Made by a program: the position numbers and the translations under genes | Shown here: in pieces, positions 276 through 8,130 of the stretch | How the letters are laid out: the number at the start of each line of letters is the position of its first letter | Numbering within the stretch: position 1 is the stretch's first letter | NCBI GenBank assembly: GCA_019163335.1 | Contig: JAFLKM010000010.1 | Coordinates: 1-34,632, forward strand | From: Desulfobulbaceae bacterium | GTDB lineage: Bacteria; Desulfobacterota; Desulfobulbia; Desulfobulbales; Desulfocapsaceae | DNA length: 34,632 bases | Reading direction: 5' to 3' | Notes under the pieces: model-generated | Told to the model about the DNA's origin: nothing | The model's database searches: none | Seen by the model: the letters and a program-made list of their open reading frames with translations, nothing else

Positions 276-983
276 TCAGCGCTCACCCTTCAGGGTCTCG
301 GCCATCGCCTCACAAATGGCAAGAAACGAATGCACGTCGAGACTGGCCTCTCCGACAAAGACTCCGGCAAGCTCCGGTATCTTCAGGTAATCACTGACAT
401 TATGCGGTTCCAAAGAGCCGCCGTACACTACCGGCAGGCCAGGCTGGATGCGAGCGATGGAGCGCGCCGTCTCTGCGACCTTGAGCGGCGACTCAGGACT
501 TCTCGCCATAGTCGCATCCACCGGGCCGTAGGCAATGATCATCTCCTTGCTGTCAATATCACTCACCGCCTGGATTTGGGCCATGGCATAGGGCTGATCC
601 ACACAGATGATGGGAGTCAGTCCCGCGTCCACCGCCTCGCGCGCCTTGTTTGCTACATCCTGCGAGGTCTCGTGAAAATAGCGTCGTCGTTCAGAATGGC
701 CAACAATCACATATCCGGCCACATCCTTAACCATGTCCGCCGCCACTGCACCGGTATAAGAACCCTTGGGAAACGGGGAGATATCCTGGGCTGCCAGAGA
801 AAAGCCGGCAAGGCCCAGTTCCTTCACATGGCGAGAGAGCCCCGGAAGACAGAGAAAGGTCGGGGCAATAATGATCTCCAGGCCTCCCACCGGATGATAG
901 CGCCCGGCAAATTCAGTCAGCCAGCTCTTTGCTTCCTCTTCTCCCTTATTACACTTCCAGTTACCGATCACATATTTTTTCAT
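276..983 (-). CDS. Triosephosphate isomerase homologue lacking the catalytic glutamate
   Basis: This 235-residue TIM-barrel protein belongs to the triosephosphate isomerase family, which interconverts dihydroxyacetone phosphate and glyceraldehyde 3-phosphate. Seen: the N-terminal GNWKCN with the substrate lysine (Lys10), the SYTG segment, GHSERR with the electrophilic His96, and the phosphate-loop GGS near 188-190. However, the segment that should read YEPVWAIGTG is YGPVDATMARSP, so the catalytic base is Gly153, loop 6 is altered, and the usual CVGE is CVDQ. At 235 residues it is shorter than the usual ~250. The start at 983 is chosen because AAAGGAT lies 8 bases upstream and homology begins there; an upstream in-frame ATG at 1040 adds 19 unrelated residues. 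It is the last gene of a minus-strand run, 70 bases after the DUF167 gene. It may be a non-catalytic or re-purposed paralogue. Family membership is sure; activity is doubtful. Confidence 0.85.
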   Translation of the reverse strand: MKKYVIGNWKCNKGEEEAKSWLTEFAGRYHPVGGLEIIIAPTFLCLPGLSRHVKELGLAGFSLAAQDISPFPKGSYTGAVAADMVKDVAGYVIVGHSERRRYFHETSQDVANKAREAVDAGLTPIICVDQPYAMAQIQAVSDIDSKEMIIAYGPVDATMARSPESPLKVAETARSIARIQPGLPVVYGGSLEPHNVSDYLKIPELAGVFVGEASLDVHSFLAICEAMAETLKGER

Positions 984-1053: not shown

Positions 1054-1377
1054 CTATGTTTTTTGCCCTGCCTCCCGGCTGGCAATCTCTTCCAGGATCT
1101 TCGCCCTGATCATCTCTTCCGACAGTCCTGCAATAATGACCTGTTTACGCCGGGACTGGTGGCCTCGATGGAGAGTTACCTGCTGACGGGGAATTTTGAA
1201 AAAGGAAGAAAAAAAGATGATGAGCGCCTTGTTGGCAGCGTCATCAACGGGCGGGGAGGTCAGGGCTACCTTGACGGCCTGATCATGAATACAGATTAAA
1301 CCATTACGGGAGGCCCGGGGTTGGACATAGACGACAAGCAGTGATCTTCCATCCGGCAAACACGAGAGAAAGGCCAT
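1054..1377 (-). CDS. yggU: DUF167 / YggU family protein
   Basis: This small 107-residue protein of the DUF167 (YggU) family has no firmly established biochemical role. The family hallmarks are clear: VQPRASRNG near residue 18, then VALTSPPVDDAANKAL in the middle, and a basic SRRK segment near residue 75 preceding the last strand. Length is normal for the family (about 95-110). It lies 57 bases downstream of the divIVA-domain gene and 70 bases upstream of the TIM homologue. DUF167 genes often neighbour yggT, as here, with divIVA between them. The ATG at 1377 has no strong Shine-Dalgarno sequence, so translation may depend partly on the upstream gene. Confidence 0.85.
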   Translation of the reverse strand: MAFLSCLPDGRSLLVVYVQPRASRNGLICIHDQAVKVALTSPPVDDAANKALIIFFSSFFKIPRQQVTLHRGHQSRRKQVIIAGLSEEMIRAKILEEIASREAGQKT

Positions 1378-1434: not shown

Positions 1435-2391
1435 TCAGAGGTTTTTTGCTTCCTCGTCGTCATTATCAGAGTCCTCGCCGTCAAAGACAGACAGCAGGTC
1501 GGATTCTCCTTCCGGAGAAGATGCAACATCGGCAGCGGGCTCCCCGCCATCGAGGGCGGTCAGATCTTCAGGGGCAAGCGTTCCATCTTCGAGGATCTGG
1601 ATCTTCTGGAACAAATCGTCAGAGTCCTGCCAGGGGCTGCTTTCCTCGTGGTCTTCCGGAAAGATGTCCAGGTTTCGCAGATATGATTCGAGGGTAGTCC
1701 GCAGGACCTTCCGCACCTCTTCTCGTTTCTGTTGCAGCGCCTTGATCTCTTCCGGTAGACGAGCAAGTTCAGCATGCGCTGCACCCCGAATCGCCTCAAT
1801 CTCAGCCCTGGTCGCAACAAGAAGCTCCTCCGCTTCTTGTTGACTCTTCTGTTTCATCGAATCACAAAACTGCTGGGCCACTGCCAGGGTTGACCTGAAA
1901 TCCACCTCATCTTTTTTGGCCTCGCGCTGCTGTTCTTCCATCAGCGCTATCTTGTGTCCCAGGGCCTCTTTCTCCGTCTTTTCCTGCAGGATCACTTCTG
2001 CTGCCTTCTGGACTCTGGCCTCCATGGCAGTCAGGGCATCCGCCTGCTCTTCTTTTTGCCGCTCCAGGCTTGCGATCTTATTGCGTAAGCCCTCGGCCTC
2101 ATTGGCCAGCACGGCAAACTTCTGCTCGGTGAGCAAGCCCGTCTGCCGCAATTCCTCAGCCATTTTACGGGCCTCGGCACCACCGGCCTCAAGGGAATAC
2201 TTCTGCTGCTCCAAATCCGCCCGTTCCTCATGCAAGACCTGAAGGTCCTCCACCTGGAGCCGGCATCGCTCCTGCAGCTCAAAAAATTCTTCGGCCAGCT
2301 CATCCAGATAGGCCTTGACCTCCAGGGGATCATACCCTCTGAATTTAACCTGAAACTCCTGATCCTTAATAATCTGTGGCGTAGTCGTCAT
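1435..2391 (-). CDS. DivIVA-domain coiled-coil protein
   Basis: This 318-residue protein has an N-terminal DivIVA-type membrane/pole-targeting module. Residues about 8-40 (FQVKFRGYDPLEVKAYLDEL) match the pattern in which a short helix-loop precedes a coiled coil. Residues about 30-240 are almost continuous heptad-rich coiled coil with Glu, Gln, Lys and Leu. The last 60 residues are acidic and low-complexity, ending in a run rich in Glu and Asp. In the family such proteins self-assemble at curved membranes and organise division or polar growth. In Desulfobacterota the role is not well defined, so septum or pole function is inferred. The start at 2391 has AGAGGA 6 bases upstream. It lies between yggT (87-base gap) and the DUF167 gene, a recurring gene neighbourhood. 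Confidence 0.85.
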   Translation of the reverse strand: MTTTPQIIKDQEFQVKFRGYDPLEVKAYLDELAEEFFELQERCRLQVEDLQVLHEERADLEQQKYSLEAGGAEARKMAEELRQTGLLTEQKFAVLANEAEGLRNKIASLERQKEEQADALTAMEARVQKAAEVILQEKTEKEALGHKIALMEEQQREAKKDEVDFRSTLAVAQQFCDSMKQKSQQEAEELLVATRAEIEAIRGAAHAELARLPEEIKALQQKREEVRKVLRTTLESYLRNLDIFPEDHEESSPWQDSDDLFQKIQILEDGTLAPEDLTALDGGEPAADVASSPEGESDLLSVFDGEDSDNDDEEAKNL

Positions 2392-2478: not shown

Positions 2479-2778
2479 TCAGCCCAACGTCATGGCCATC
2501 TGCTTGAGCGTCGGCACCAGAAAACTCTGCAGAAACATGATCACCATTATGAGAATCATGGGCGAGAAATCAATTCCACCCATACTGAAAGGCAGCAATT
2601 TCCGGATTCGGCTCAACAGCGGCTCAGTGACTTCATACAAAAAGCGGACAACGGGATTATACGGATCGGCGTTCACCCAGGAAATCACAGCCCTGCCAAT
2701 GATAATCCACATATAGGCGGAAAGCAGGAAATCAATCAACTGGGCAATGGCCATCATAAAATTATTCACCACAAACAT
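2479..2778 (-). CDS. yggT: YggT family integral membrane protein
   Basis: This 99-residue inner-membrane protein has two hydrophobic segments, about residues 5-30 and 70-95. They flank a loop containing ISWVNADPYNPVVRFLYEVTEP, the YggT signature of a Trp-Val/Asn-Pro turn followed by a PLLSRIRKLLP amphipathic stretch. YggT relatives have been linked to osmotic protection, and in chloroplasts and Gram-positives to membrane-complex assembly or division; the exact role here is unknown. The ATG at 2778 has an excellent AAGGAG 7 bases upstream. It lies 130 bases after metG and 87 bases before the divIVA-domain gene, probably in the same transcript. Confidence 0.9.
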   Translation of the reverse strand: MFVVNNFMMAIAQLIDFLLSAYMWIIIGRAVISWVNADPYNPVVRFLYEVTEPLLSRIRKLLPFSMGGIDFSPMILIMVIMFLQSFLVPTLKQMAMTLG

Positions 2779-2908: not shown

Positions 2909-4876
2909 CTACGCCACCTTGCTGCCCGCTGGCACCTGACCACTGACCGTGGTCAGCACCAAGCGTTTTTTCCCATCTACCACAGTGCTGGCGGCAAGGA
3001 CCATTCCCTGTGACTGAACCCCCATCAACTCCACTGGTTTAAGATTGGCGACAATAAGCACCAAGCGCCCGAGCACCTCTTCAGGGGTATAATACTGGGC
3101 AATACCGGCGACAATGGTTCGTTCCTCGGGTGCCTTGACCGTCAACTTGAGCAAACGGTCTGATTTGACAATCCGCTCCGCGGCCACCACCTCGGCCACC
3201 CGCAGATCCACTTGCTGAAAATGGGCAAAGTCAATGACTCCAACCTCGGCGCCTTCCGCCTTCGCCTTTTTTTTCTCTTTTTCAGGAGCGGATTTTTTCG
3301 CAGAAACAGCCGTGCTTTTCCCGACAGCGTTCTGCTCTTTTTCAGGATTATCCACCCGTGGAAAGAGGGCCTCGGTCTTCTGCAATCTGGTACCTGCCGT
3401 GCTCAATCCCCAGTGCGCGCCGTGGGGGAAGTCGCTGATCCTGGGATCATCACTGGCAAGCCCAAGTCCCGCAGCCATCTTCGCGCTCGTCTGCGGCATC
3501 ACCGGACGCAACACCAACGCCAGCAGGCGCAGGCATTCCACCAGGTTATAGAGCACCGCAAACAGGCGTGGATGCTGGGCAGGGTCCTTCGCCAGGGTCC
3601 AAGGCTCAGAGACGACAATGTACTTATTGGCATGGCTGATCAGTTCCCAGACGCTCTGCAAGGCCCGATGAAAGCGGAAGCGCTCCATATTCTCGTGATA
3701 CTGGGACAGCATCAGCAAAGCTGACCGGGTAAGCGTCACGTCAATGTCCAGATCGATCCCCGGGGCTGGGACCTGACCCTCTGTATATTTCTCAAGCATG
3801 GCCAGAGAACGACTAAACAGGTTCCCCAGATCATTGGCCAGATCAGAATTCTTGCGCGTCACAATGCCGGAACTGGTAAACGAGGCATCAAGGCCGAAGG
3901 ACATCTCCCGCAGCAGGAAATAGCGCACCGTATCAACACCGTATTCTGCGGCCAGTTCCGCCGGCCGCACGACGTTGCCGATGCTTTTGGACATCTTCAC
4001 GTCCCCAACATTCCAGTATCCATGCACGTGCAACCGCTGATACAAAGGAAGACCCATGGCCAGAAGCATGGTTGGCCAGTAGATGGCATGGGGTTTCAGA
4101 ATATCCTTGGCGATCAAATGTTCCGCCGCTCCCCAGTATTTCTCAAACGACTCACCATCAGGATAATCAATACCGGTGAGATAATTGATCAGGGCATCAA
4201 ACCACACATAGGTGACAAAGCCGGCGTCAAAAGGCAGCGGAATCCCCCAGGTCAGCCTTGCGGTGGGACGCGAAATACAGAGATCCTCCAGAGGTTCACT
4301 CAAGAAAGAGAGGACTTCATTGCGGTAGCGTTCGGGGGTGATAAAATCGGGATGGGCATGGATATGATCGATGAGGACCTGCTGATAACGGGACATCCGG
4401 AAGAAATAGTTCTGTTCGGTGATCTGCTCCGGCGGGCGCTGGTGATCGGGACAGTTTCCACCCACCAACTCCTTTTCGGTGAGAAAACGCTCGCACCCCT
4501 TACAGTACAATCCTGAATATTCACCGAAATAGATATCGCCCTGATCGTACACCTGCTGCAAGACCCGCTGCACGGTCTGGATATGAGCGGCATCCGTGGT
4601 GCGGATAAAATTATCCGGAGCGATATCAAGCAGCGGCCAGCTCTTCCGATACAGGGCGCTGATCCGATCAACGTACTCCCTTGGGCGTACCTGCTCACGG
4701 TCTGCCGCCTCGGCAATCTTGTCGCCATGCTCATCCGTGCCCGTCTGAAAACGCACGTCCTCACCGCACAATCTGCGAAACCGGCTGTAGGTATCAGCGA
4801 CAACGGTGGTATAGGCATGGCCCAGATGGGGTTCGGCATTCACATAATAGATCGGGGTGGTAATATAGGTCGTCAT
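2909..4876 (-). CDS. metG: Methionyl-tRNA synthetase with C-terminal tRNA-binding domain
   Basis: This class I synthetase charges tRNA-Met with methionine in the cytoplasm. Seen: the HIGH-type motif HLGH at residues 17-20, a zinc knuckle with CKGC and a following CPDH pair (two-knuckle-cysteine, Thermus-like subtype), and KMSKSIGNVV near residue 300. An anticodon-binding helical domain follows. After a Lys/Ala-rich linker, the last ~110 residues form an EMAP/Trbp111-like OB fold (VDLRVAEV, SQGMVLAAS). Length is 655 residues, normal for MetRS with this appended dimerisation domain. The ATG at 4876 overlaps the ricT stop by one base (TGATG). A GTG three bases earlier is an alternative start. 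AGGA precedes both. It lies between ricT and yggT on the same strand. Confidence 0.97.
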   Translation of the reverse strand: MTTYITTPIYYVNAEPHLGHAYTTVVADTYSRFRRLCGEDVRFQTGTDEHGDKIAEAADREQVRPREYVDRISALYRKSWPLLDIAPDNFIRTTDAAHIQTVQRVLQQVYDQGDIYFGEYSGLYCKGCERFLTEKELVGGNCPDHQRPPEQITEQNYFFRMSRYQQVLIDHIHAHPDFITPERYRNEVLSFLSEPLEDLCISRPTARLTWGIPLPFDAGFVTYVWFDALINYLTGIDYPDGESFEKYWGAAEHLIAKDILKPHAIYWPTMLLAMGLPLYQRLHVHGYWNVGDVKMSKSIGNVVRPAELAAEYGVDTVRYFLLREMSFGLDASFTSSGIVTRKNSDLANDLGNLFSRSLAMLEKYTEGQVPAPGIDLDIDVTLTRSALLMLSQYHENMERFRFHRALQSVWELISHANKYIVVSEPWTLAKDPAQHPRLFAVLYNLVECLRLLALVLRPVMPQTSAKMAAGLGLASDDPRISDFPHGAHWGLSTAGTRLQKTEALFPRVDNPEKEQNAVGKSTAVSAKKSAPEKEKKKAKAEGAEVGVIDFAHFQQVDLRVAEVVAAERIVKSDRLLKLTVKAPEERTIVAGIAQYYTPEEVLGRLVLIVANLKPVELMGVQSQGMVLAASTVVDGKKRLVLTTVSGQVPAGSKVA

Positions 4877-5772
4877 CACTTCTTTTCCTTCTTGCCGATC
4901 TCTTCCACTTTGACCGGTTCACAATTTTGCCACTGCTCTTTGGTCAACACCCGGCCTTCCCCTTTTTGATCACTGACCTGAAGGGTCTGTTGCAAAGGAT
5001 TCTGCCGTTTCACCAGGAAGATCTCCTCACCAATCTTGATCCGTTTGCCGGGCTTGGGCATTCCTTTACGTTCGCGCCGATAGGTGGAGTATTCATAGGT
5101 AAGACAACAAAGTAGACGATTGCAGACCCCTGATATCTTGGTGGGATTCAGCGGGAGATCCTGCTCCTTGGCCATTTTGATGGACACCGAATCAAACTCC
5201 TCCATAAAGACGGAACAGCACAATTCCCGGCCACAGGCGCCAAGTCCACCGAGCATTCTGGTCTCATGGCGGACTCCCACCTGTCGCATCTCCACCCTGG
5301 TATGAAACTCCAGAACCAGATCCTTGACCAGATCCCGAAAATCAATGCGATTATTGGCGGTGAAATAAAGAACTATCTTGCTGCCGTTAAAATATCGTTC
5401 AGCCCGGGTCAGACGCATGGGCAATCGATGCTGCTCAATCAAAACCTTGCAGGCCTTGAAGGCGGTATCCTCCCAGGAATCTATATTCGCATACCGGCCC
5501 GCCTCTTCCTGGTTTGCCCGTCTTGTCAGGGCGTGCGGCGCTCGGCGGACCTTTTCACATCCAGGACAGGAAGGTGCCCGGCTGACCACCTTTGCCGGTT
5601 CCGGACCATGATCGGTCTTGACCATCACCACATCACGCGCCTTCAGATCAGGGATATCCGAAGATGCCGTGACCTCCTGGCCTTTATTGCGAAAACAGAT
5701 GCGATAAAAGAAGATCTGCGCTCCTTCGCTCTGTTCCTGTTCGTCCAGCATGTCGTCCTGTGGTTCTGCCAT
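4876..5772 (-). CDS. ricT: RicT/YaaT-type PSP1 C-terminal domain protein
   Basis: This 298-residue PSP1-domain protein is related to Bacillus RicT (YaaT). In Bacillus, RicT acts with RicA and RicF in a complex that carries Fe-S clusters and promotes RNase Y maturation of transcripts. Seen: CPGC near residue 70, GACGRELCC near 180, the segment with SIKMAKEQDLPLNPTKISG, then VCNRLLCCLTYEY. These cysteines match the conserved cluster-binding set. A basic C-terminal tail follows. No ricA or ricF partner is visible here, and the role outside Firmicutes is inferred. The gene sits between holB and metG, a pairing also common in Firmicutes. The ATG at 5772 lacks a clear ribosome-binding site; an in-frame ATG at 5751 has AGGA 4 bases upstream and may be the true start. 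Confidence 0.92.
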   Translation of the reverse strand: MAEPQDDMLDEQEQSEGAQIFFYRICFRNKGQEVTASSDIPDLKARDVVMVKTDHGPEPAKVVSRAPSCPGCEKVRRAPHALTRRANQEEAGRYANIDSWEDTAFKACKVLIEQHRLPMRLTRAERYFNGSKIVLYFTANNRIDFRDLVKDLVLEFHTRVEMRQVGVRHETRMLGGLGACGRELCCSVFMEEFDSVSIKMAKEQDLPLNPTKISGVCNRLLCCLTYEYSTYRRERKGMPKPGKRIKIGEEIFLVKRQNPLQQTLQVSDQKGEGRVLTKEQWQNCEPVKVEEIGKKEKK

Positions 5773-5959: not shown

Positions 5960-7009
5960 TTATTGCTGCAATTGAAAAAGGAGCACCTCGCACACGAGAT
6001 TCCGGTTGCAGTTTCGACCAAGTTCTTTTTCAGCCTGGTCAATGGCTTGCAGTTTATCAAAAAGCTGCCGGGAATTCCAGCGCTTCTGTTGAATTTCCGG
6101 CAAGCCCCCGTCTATTGCGTCCCGCTGCTCCCCCGTCTGTCCGGAAAACCCGGCTACCAGCAGGTCACGCAGCCAGATCCGCAAGAGACCAAAAAGGGGA
6201 AGCAGGTCTTCCTTGAGAGCCGCCATGGTTTCCGCAGCCTGCAGGAGCAAGCCCACATCACGATTGCTGTCTTTTTGAGGATCGGAAACAAGGGCCACCA
6301 CCTGTCGCCAGATGGCAATCATCTCACTGCGATACAAGACCAGCGCCTGGCCTGGACAGCCTTCGGACAGCCGGGCCAGGAGCCGGGCCGTCTCCGCTTC
6401 CAGCTCTGGATTCACCCGCATCAATACCTGCGTTGTGTCTTCTTCCCGCAGGCTGAAAAAAGGGACCATCTGGCACCTGGAACTGATCGTGGTCAGGATC
6501 TCACGGGAGGCGGAGGCGGTCAAGATGAGCAGATTCTTGTCCGGCGGCTCTTCCAAGGTTTTGAGCAGACAATTTGCCGCCTCCGGCCGCATGGTATGGA
6601 TATCCTCAATCAGCACCACCCGCGATGCCGACTCATAGGGCGGATAGGACAAGGCTTGGATCATCTCGCGGATTCGGTCAATCTTGATCGTCCCCTTTTC
6701 CGGACTGATCACCATGAAATCCGGATGATTCCCCGAGCTGTACTTCACGCAGGAGGAACAACGACCGCAAGGCAAGGAGGCCCAATCACTCGCTCCTGGA
6801 TCTGAAGAAAACGCCTGCCGCTGCCGGCAGTTCACCGCTGCGGCCAGGCTGCGCGCGAAAAGCTGCTTGCCCACCCCGTCTGGCCCCCTGAACAGATAGG
6901 CATGTGCCAACTGCCCCGACTCCAGGGCCCGTCCGAGGAATAATTTGGCCTTTTCCTGACCGACAAGATGGGAAAAAGGAGCAATCATTTGTCTCTGAAG
7001 TGTGCTCAT
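5960..7009 (-). CDS. holB: DNA polymerase III delta-prime subunit (clamp loader)
   Basis: This 349-residue AAA+ protein of the clamp loader helps load the beta clamp on DNA. Seen: FSHLVGQEKAK at the start of the ATPase fold, a Walker A-like GPDGVGK near residue 43, and a zinc module formed by an early Cys and CGRCSSC. Also present are the Walker-B region VVLIEDIHTM, LLKTLEEPP, and the SRC motif (ISSRC). The C-terminal third is a divergent helical collar domain. The longer reading frame reaches a TTG at 7090 overlapping the YhaM-like stop. The ATG at 7009 is preferred because family homology begins soon after it. It follows the YhaM-like gene and precedes ricT with repeat copy A between them. 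HolB rather than DnaX is supported by length and gene context. Confidence 0.92.
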   Translation of the reverse strand: MSTLQRQMIAPFSHLVGQEKAKLFLGRALESGQLAHAYLFRGPDGVGKQLFARSLAAAVNCRQRQAFSSDPGASDWASLPCGRCSSCVKYSSGNHPDFMVISPEKGTIKIDRIREMIQALSYPPYESASRVVLIEDIHTMRPEAANCLLKTLEEPPDKNLLILTASASREILTTISSRCQMVPFFSLREEDTTQVLMRVNPELEAETARLLARLSEGCPGQALVLYRSEMIAIWRQVVALVSDPQKDSNRDVGLLLQAAETMAALKEDLLPLFGLLRIWLRDLLVAGFSGQTGEQRDAIDGGLPEIQQKRWNSRQLFDKLQAIDQAEKELGRNCNRNLVCEVLLFQLQQ

Positions 7010-7086
7010 CCCTCTGCCTGTTCCTTGATTACCCCTATCCTGCTCATCAAAATAAAAGACCCGGCAAAAAACGCCACCCCGGCATT

Positions 7087-8130
7087 TCAAAAAAGCGTTG
7101 GCTGACGCACCGGCGCCGGTTGTTCGTGATCATCATCGAGAATCTCTGGAGCAAAGCGACCACTGCGCTCCTCCTCAAAAGGGCCAAGGTAGAGGTATCG
7201 CTCCAGGGAGCGCTGATACTCGGTCCATTGCAGGCCCGGGGTCTTCATCTTCTTGCGTAATTGCTCCATCAGATTCATCTTGGCGTCAAGATCATCGACA
7301 AAACTGAGAAGAAATGCCTCCACGGTCATGGGCACGGCGGGTGAGCCAAACTCCTGCCGGCCATGATGACTGAGGATCAGATGCTGTAGCTGGGTCAGAA
7401 GTTCGGCAGGAAAGTCCTTGATCTGGGCGGCGGCCGCAGCCACCATCTCACTGCCCATGACCAGATGCCCCTTCAGCCGTCCCTGGGCAGTGTAGTCAAT
7501 GACGGCAAGCTCCAACACCAGCTCATCCACCTTGCCGATATCATGGAGCAGGGCTCCGGTCACAAGCAAGGCACGATCAACACCAACATAATGGGCAGCC
7601 ATAAGGTCGGCTATCCGGGCCACGGAAAGGGAGTGCTCAAGCAGACCGCCGGCGTAGGCGTGATGAATCCCCTTAGCCGCCGGGGCATCCTGAAAACGCT
7701 GCCACATCGGCTCTTTCTTGAAAAAATGGGCCAGCAGTTTTCTCAAATGCGGATTTTTTACGGAGGCGGCAAGGAGTTGAAGCTCCTCGGCCATCCCGCC
7801 TCTATCCTGATCACTGACCAGGGTGAAGTCAGCGGGATCAACCTCGCTGCGTTCCACGGCACGAACCGCATCAATCTTAAGCTGGAGTTTATCGCGATAG
7901 GACTGGATCTGACCGCTCAGATGGACGAAATGGCCCACTTGACACAGCCCTTGCAGCTCCTCGGCACGATCCCAGATCGGCCCACTGATTTCACCGGTGC
8001 GATCAACGACTTCGAGGGTCAGATAGGGTTTCCCGGCCCGGGTCTCTGCCATACGCGCCGACTTGACCAGAAAGAAATCATCGAGCCGGTCGCCTGCTTT
8101 CAACTGTTCGATAAACTGACTCTTACGCAT
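7087..8130 (-). CDS. YhaM-like 3'-5' exoribonuclease (OB fold plus HD domain)
   Basis: This 347-residue protein has two parts. Residues about 10-95 form an OB-fold nucleic-acid-binding domain (PYLTLEVVDRTGEISGPIWD). Residues about 150-310 form an HD phosphohydrolase domain with HHAYAGGLLEHSLSVA, ALLHDIGK, LILSHHG and a late FVDDLDAKMN. This architecture matches YhaM, a metal-dependent 3'-5' exonuclease acting on RNA and single-stranded DNA. The equivalent role here is inferred from the family. Its stop lies close to holB (77 bases from the preferred holB start, overlapping with the longer frame). No convincing ribosome-binding site precedes the ATG at 8130. A terminator-like hairpin upstream (8233-8262) suggests it begins a new transcript separate from ychF. 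Confidence 0.9.
   Translation of the reverse strand: MRKSQFIEQLKAGDRLDDFFLVKSARMAETRAGKPYLTLEVVDRTGEISGPIWDRAEELQGLCQVGHFVHLSGQIQSYRDKLQLKIDAVRAVERSEVDPADFTLVSDQDRGGMAEELQLLAASVKNPHLRKLLAHFFKKEPMWQRFQDAPAAKGIHHAYAGGLLEHSLSVARIADLMAAHYVGVDRALLVTGALLHDIGKVDELVLELAVIDYTAQGRLKGHLVMGSEMVAAAAAQIKDFPAELLTQLQHLILSHHGRQEFGSPAVPMTVEAFLLSFVDDLDAKMNLMEQLRKKMKTPGLQWTEYQRSLERYLYLGPFEEERSGRFAPEILDDDHEQPAPVRQPTLF

Follow-up and report, generated by a model that had tools for sequence, protein, structure and literature searches.

The gene at positions 276..983 (minus strand) of the window, by which we mean the whole 34,632-nucleotide stretch of Desulfobulbaceae DNA analysed here, encodes a 235-aa protein (P0001) of the triosephosphate isomerase (TIM) family in which the catalytic glutamate is missing. 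TIM is used as a model in the study of both enzyme catalysis and the TIM barrel, and the question raised by this locus is what a family member without its catalytic base might do. The original prediction, made from the letters of the window, had described a homologue that keeps the fold and the phosphate site, and considered a different reaction, a ligand sensor or a dead paralogue. The gene was delimited by translation of the open reading frame, Pfam matching and alignment with relatives. Although a longer in-frame ATG exists at 1040, close relatives start to align at the Met of 983, and AGGA is found 7 bases ahead of that ATG. A scan for promoters and terminators returned nothing informative. 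P0001 matches the Pfam TIM model (PF00121) over residues 4-226 with an E-value of 1.4e-50 and 172.5 bits, against a gathering cut-off of 20.1, and at this E-value its likeness to TIM is not due to chance. By homology and predicted fold, P0001 is a member of the TIM family. Its two nearest named records, 89 and 83% identical, come from Desulfobulbaceae and Desulfocapsa metagenome assemblies.

The active-site changes proposed for this protein are all borne out by the bases, the translation and the alignment. Positions 525..527 read gcc on the plus strand, hence GGC (Gly) on the coding strand, and the encoded Gly153 occupies the place of the catalytic glutamate, Glu165 in classical TIM numbering; going from GGC to GAA or GAG takes two base changes, as had been stated. 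The translation carries NWKCNK (Lys10), GHSERR (His96 and Glu98), ICVDQ, IIAYGPVDATMARSP and VYGGS, and thus keeps the catalytic lysine (codon at 954..956, minus strand) and the catalytic histidine (codon at 696..698, minus strand). In the alignment, CVDQ (Cys127-Gln130; 594..605, minus strand) replaces the canonical CVGE, and a remodelled loop 6, YGPVDATMAR (Tyr152-Arg161; 501..530, minus strand), replaces YEPVWAIGTG and lacks IGTG. The fold is conserved, as a predicted barrel. The phosphate site is conserved incompletely: P0001 retains YGGS in loop 7 and the first Gly of loop 8, and lacks the Gly of loop 6 and the second Gly of loop 8.

The same pattern extends to a whole family. Residues were counted in 114 distinct family rows (four of them without the Lys10 column) and 33 canonical rows. 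Position 153 is G in 68 family rows, T in 29, C in 10, S in 3, and E, N, D and I once each, compared with E in 33/33 canonical rows; the codon is a single base away from Glu in 24 of the 114 (GGA 10, GGG 14). Lys10 is kept in 109/110 family rows having that column and His96 in 112/113, and 108 of the 110 full rows combine Lys10, His96 and Glu/Asp98 with the absence of Glu153. The sole family row with Glu at 153 (L033) has lost His96 and the sole row with Asp (L113) has lost Lys10, so that neither resembles a reverted TIM. The loop-6 signature (PROSITE PS00171) is found in 33/33 canonical rows and 0/114 family rows. The median matched length is 227 residues in the family and 243 in the canonical set, 16 residues shorter, in line with the shortening by about 15 residues noted initially. 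Both groups conserve a shared set of residues in loops 1, 3 and 4 (Asn8, Trp9, Lys10, Gln66, Gly74, Thr77, Gly78, Gly95, His96, Glu98, Arg99, Arg100, Phe103, Glu105), with the addition of Cys127, loop 7 and a few others, while positions fixed in canonical TIMs only are mostly in loops 5, 6 and 8. By this pattern, change has fallen on the base and the phosphate lid, and the Lys/His half of the active site has been spared together with the side that makes the dimer contact.

Two accounts, a decaying pseudogene and a sequencing error, have next to no chance of being correct. An error or frameshift in the window gene was rejected, as absence of Glu153 recurs in 113 of 114 rows drawn from many assemblies. 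Decay does occur among relatives: one genome (G004) has an operon copy split into two frames (L069/L176) and another copy (L017) that reads through, and L033 and L113 have each lost a further catalytic residue. Against decay as the state of the window gene, synteny is conserved in two sub-clades, and the median dN/dS is 0.167 for the Glu-less paralogue versus 0.095 for TpiA (45 pairs, covering 10 of 17 genomes in the genus, in a set that includes the piece of the broken G004 copy). The protein is therefore constrained, less so than TpiA, and is no relic; together with the retention of Lys10, His96 and Glu/Asp98, this disposes of the dead paralogue offered by the original prediction. Loss of the base, fixed in the clade (113/114 rows without Glu), combined with purifying selection gives the family two marks of a candidate pseudoenzyme.

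Could the protein nevertheless act as the triosephosphate isomerase of its host? The genome of the window (3.2 Mb, 103 contigs, 99.4% complete) contains three PF00121 matches of 305.5, 171.7 and 148.6 bits. The original prediction had proposed a search for a canonical TpiA and counted the lack of a second TpiA, together with measurable TIM activity, as refuting it; the 305.5-bit match is a canonical TpiA (C25:14479-15213) that adjoins pgk and lies on a different contig from the P0001 gene. A second Glu-less copy is located at C6:88046-88738 (L003/L177). At the scale of the order, 151 of the 159 genomes at least 90% complete have a best match of canonical strength (E <= 6e-84, read by eye), three (G016, G193 and G237) have a match of paralogue strength only, and five have none. 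All 21 of the order's canonical sequences that were read carry the Glu. In G016, G193 and G237, pgk was not found either, whereas it adjoins tpiA in the genome of the window and in G003; the pgk-tpiA locus is thus most likely missing from those drafts. Replacement of TpiA by the Glu-less protein was rejected on these grounds.

It is very doubtful that P0001 is still a weak triosephosphate isomerase alongside TpiA. Lys10 and His96 are kept, and an excerpt of the Desulfocapsa sulfexigens genome report (PMC3739170) gives two triosephosphate isomerases for that species, UWK_00786 and UWK_01623. The excerpt numbers UWK_00786 next to the 3-phosphoglycerate kinase, and we infer that UWK_01623 would be the Glu-less form. 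On the other side stand the absence of Glu153 from 113/114 rows, the loss of the loop-6 IGTG and the canonical-strength match in 151/159 genomes. P0001 also falls below the cut-off of all nine listed NCBIfam TIM models, reaching 95.9 bits against 130.6 for TIGR00419 and 42.9 bits against 132 for PRK04302 (triose-phosphate isomerase, short form), a model linked to archaea. Judging from these residues, isomerase activity is very probably absent.

The Glu-less proteins are an old, conserved Desulfobulbales family that forms one clade. At E<=1e-45, a family profile built from 25 members (alignment A1) has matches in 143 of 257 Desulfobulbales genomes. Of the 148 order genomes that are at least 90% complete and at most 5% contaminated, 92 are matched; the remaining 56 of these 148 have no match at this threshold, from which it follows that some lineages manage without the family. 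Among 395 genomes across the phylum (some within the order), the family was not seen outside the order, where matches reach 160.4 bits, and the 12 outside matches that were fetched (L183-L194) are all canonical, with Glu and Trp. A pattern scan of contigs gave 251 confirmed loci; in the 80 considered, the titles name Desulfobulbales groups or broader groups, apart from one Desulfoarculaceae (L045) and one Desulfobacterales (L088) title. Cultured carriers of the family include Desulfoprunum benzoelyticum DSM 28570 and Desulfofustis glycolicus DSM 9705 (L075 and L090). The family gene occurs twice at one locus (L144, in G119); about 5 kb separate the copies, which share a strand, and the second is a 150-aa partial reading.

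The family tree proposed at the outset likewise returns a single conserved clade. In a tree of 130 rows, 97 family rows lie on one side of a branch with an SH-aLRT of 100; these are the 97 of 114 left once rows at least 85% alike to a kept row or shorter than 200 aa were dropped, the window row being restored. In a 54-row tree that includes five solved TIMs (30 family rows and 19 of the 33 canonical rows, hand-picked), the family is one clade (100/99) apart from canonical TIMs. Recent duplication of the resident tpiA is not supported, as a branch of 100/97 separates a group of Desulfobacterota and other bacterial TIMs from the family. The tree is unrooted and has long branches, and the family may go back to old divergence, to transfer or to fast evolution after a duplication. 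Three sub-clades are seen, and they track taxon codes; in the third (f3/f4/f5/f6/f8/f10/f14/f15), loop 6 is nearer to the old lid, with GPVEAIG in 12/24 rows.

The predicted structure agrees with this picture of a retained barrel. An AlphaFold2 model was computed from 79 family rows (alignment A2: P0001 and 78 of the 80 scan loci, leaving out the broken L069 and the odd L113). It shows eight strands and a full TIM barrel, with a mean pLDDT of 89.8 and a pTM of 0.90; the weakest ten-residue blocks are 71-80 (loop 3, pLDDT 59) and 151-160 (loop 6, pLDDT 70). The model aligns with 1aw1_A over 230 residues (Z 31.0, rmsd 2.3), and its TM-score against solved TIMs reaches 0.86. The TIM dimer contact is formed by loop-1, loop-3 and loop-4 residues, of which Asn8, Lys10, Gln66, Gly74, Thr77, Gly78, Glu98, Arg99 and Glu105 are kept in the alignment; loop 3 itself is predicted with low confidence in this monomer model.

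A contact kept to this extent would suit the role of a prozyme: a copy without catalysis of its own that pairs with TpiA in mixed dimers and adjusts the activity of TpiA. The three of 159 genomes with a paralogue-strength match only might be added in favour, for they also lack pgk and the absence of TpiA there is an apparent assembly gap. Yet a homodimer would conserve identical residues, the loop-3 Glu, which is E in 28/33 canonical rows, has become Ala in 100/114 family rows, and in the genome of the window the gene and tpiA lie on separate contigs. Mixed dimers with TpiA are accordingly judged improbable.

The changes on the catalytic face are as regular as the conservation on the contact face. 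An Asp or Glu is found at position 129 in 110/114 family rows and an acid at 155 or 156 in 109/114, the two occurring together in 105/114; 0/33 canonical rows have either. Position 130, E in 33/33 canonical rows, is Q in 55, R in 15 and K in 5 family rows (Q/R/K 75/114, the remainder being others). In canonical TIM, Trp168 packs on Glu129 upon lid closure; the canonical Gly128-Glu129 and Trp168 are present in 33/33 canonical rows and replaced in the family. The acid at 156 together with Gln, Arg or Lys at 130 may represent a rebuilt hinge; alternatively, the acids may have become part of a new active site.

The latter reading leads to an enzyme with a new reaction, in which Lys10 and His96 would polarise a carbonyl while Asp/Glu129 and Asp/Glu155-156 would replace Glu as the base or bind a metal. 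The near fixation of these acids in the family and their absence from the 33 canonical rows argue for it, as do purifying selection and Cys127, present in 114/114 family rows, though this cysteine is fixed in canonical TIMs too. Because the acid at 156 sits at the place of the canonical Trp168 and residue 130 differs along with it, the change may amount to no more than a rebuilt loop hinge. Loop 6 is also the less surely predicted part of the model, and no clear pathway emerges from 20 annotated neighbour proteins. A new reaction is possible, and we hold it to be a minority reading; that the Lys/His pair and the relocated acids specifically work together in catalysis on a small carbonyl substrate, perhaps one without phosphate, is a still more tentative proposal. 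If the moved-acid reading is true, nature has shifted the acid within an active site that ranks among the best studied of any enzyme.

The gene neighbourhood was established by Pfam and synteny. Upstream of the P0001 gene, all on the minus strand, lie genes for DUF167/YggU (1054..1377, directly upstream), DivIVA (1435..2391), YggT (2479..2778), methionyl-tRNA synthetase (MetG; 2909..4879), a RicT-like PSP1 protein (4876..5772), a HolB-like DNA polymerase III delta-prime subunit (5960..7090) and, upstream of HolB in the same string, an HD-domain protein with an OB-fold match (7087..8130). In two of the three sub-clades, the Glu-less gene closes a housekeeping string (MetG, YggT, DUF167) for most members. 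In the sub-clade of the window (72 rows), 58/67 rows having at least 700 bases upstream show a same-strand DUF167 gene no more than 2.1 kb upstream, and DUF167, DivIVA or YggT is near in 61/67; MetG is in place in 48/52 rows with at least 4500 bases upstream, and HolB in 47/50 with at least 6500. The f12 sub-clade has DUF167 in 12/18 rows, and DivIVA was not found near its genes (0/18), while DUF167, DivIVA and YggT are near in 0/24 rows of the third sub-clade. The DUF167/divIVA association of the original prediction consequently describes the sub-clade of the window and fails for the third sub-clade and, as regards DivIVA, for f12.

Other settings are seen as well. The remaining six rows of the window sub-clade (L003, L014, L017, L043, L046, L058) have an alpha-amylase/BON or similar, stress-like neighbourhood. 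The second copy in the genome of the window (L177, G000:C6:80055-94710) is found amid genes for BON-domain, holin-X-like, CBM48 alpha-amylase and PAS hybrid kinase proteins; the alpha-amylase could, as a guess, be TreZ-like. In neighbourhoods of this type (L177, L173-L175, L041, L047), gene order varies among genomes as in a stress island, and L173 includes an ice-binding-like protein. In three f12 loci (L139, L145, L151), the gene is preceded by an NAD-dependent epimerase-like gene and has a ThiF-like gene downstream, with no DUF167 string; in L139, from which this annotation comes, other genes stand between the Glu-less gene and the ThiF-like gene. YggS is the PLP barrel protein of the E. 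coli yggS-proC-yggT-yggU cluster, and a role of P0001 as its stand-in was rejected: two Ala_racemase_N proteins are encoded elsewhere in the genome of the window.

No pathway clue was found among the 20 neighbour proteins annotated outside the window. The position at the end of the HD, HolB, RicT, MetG, YggT, DivIVA and DUF167 string suggests steady expression rather than a pathway. The neighbours give no hint of sensing: the string is general housekeeping, DivIVA was not found in f12, and DUF167, DivIVA and YggT are not near in the third sub-clade (0/24).

Altogether, these findings make it somewhat more probable than otherwise that P0001 is a TIM-derived non-isomerase, probably a dimer, that binds a small anionic ligand at the kept Lys/His site. 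In this proposal, drawn from residue patterns, the gene would belong to an old Desulfobulbales family derived from TIM whose members have given up triosephosphate isomerisation. Retained are the predicted (beta/alpha)8 barrel, most of the loop-1/3/4 dimer-contact residues and, in the active site, the half made up of Lys10, His96 and Glu98; the catalytic base (Glu to Gly here) and the phosphate-gripping loop-6 lid have been lost, and near-fixed acids gained after strands 5 and 6. Less surely, the protein might serve as a dimeric ligand-binding sensor or regulator, a small anionic and perhaps phosphorylated metabolite being held at Lys10/His96 and loop 7 without deprotonation. The case for ligand binding lies mainly with His96 (112/113 rows), because Lys10, Glu98 and Thr77 could serve dimer packing alone. 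The near-fixed acids could point to catalysis rather than sensing.

As an old family in which nature has removed the glutamate and the lid but left the lysine, the histidine and, probably, the dimer contact in place, these proteins would offer a ready experiment on how an active site changes function. There is a consequence for annotation as well: genes of this kind will probably be labelled triosephosphate isomerase and credited to glycolysis. This misnaming may have affected one of the two Desulfocapsa sulfexigens genes given in the excerpt of the genome report (PMC3739170), assuming that it belongs to the family. No description of a Glu-less TIM clade was found in the literature searched, judged by titles and abstract openings.

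Comparison with known proteins sets P0001 closest to TIM itself. P0001 and the TpiA of its own genome share the predicted fold and 69 of 218 aligned residues, and the family shares with canonical TpiA the Lys, the His, Glu98, Cys127, YGGS and most dimer-loop residues; unlike canonical TpiA, it lacks the catalytic Glu, the Trp168/Glu129 pair, the loop-6 IGTG and the second loop-8 Gly. The second Glu-less copy is identical to P0001 at 148/228 residues and has Phe-Gly-Pro at its base position, but it lies beside the alpha-amylase, BON-domain, holin-X-like and PAS-kinase genes, outside the DivIVA string. L-erythrulose-1-phosphate isomerase (11ef) shares the TIM fold (structural match Z 29.3, rmsd 2.3 over 223) and acts on another substrate than TIM; unlike P0001, it probably employs the TIM catalytic residues. 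Among solved sequences, the best match to the family profile is 7r9b (223 aa), with 168 bits against 158.5 for the next; P0001 alone matches 6w4u best and 7r9b second. Like the family, 7r9b is a short form with no Glu at the base position and a Glu at the Trp168 position (loop YDPKEAIGTG); unlike it, 7r9b has an Asp at the base position and an intact IGTG lid. In the 54-row tree it is a long row branching between the family and the other TIMs, and 7r9b, itself named triosephosphate isomerase, may be a natural intermediate.
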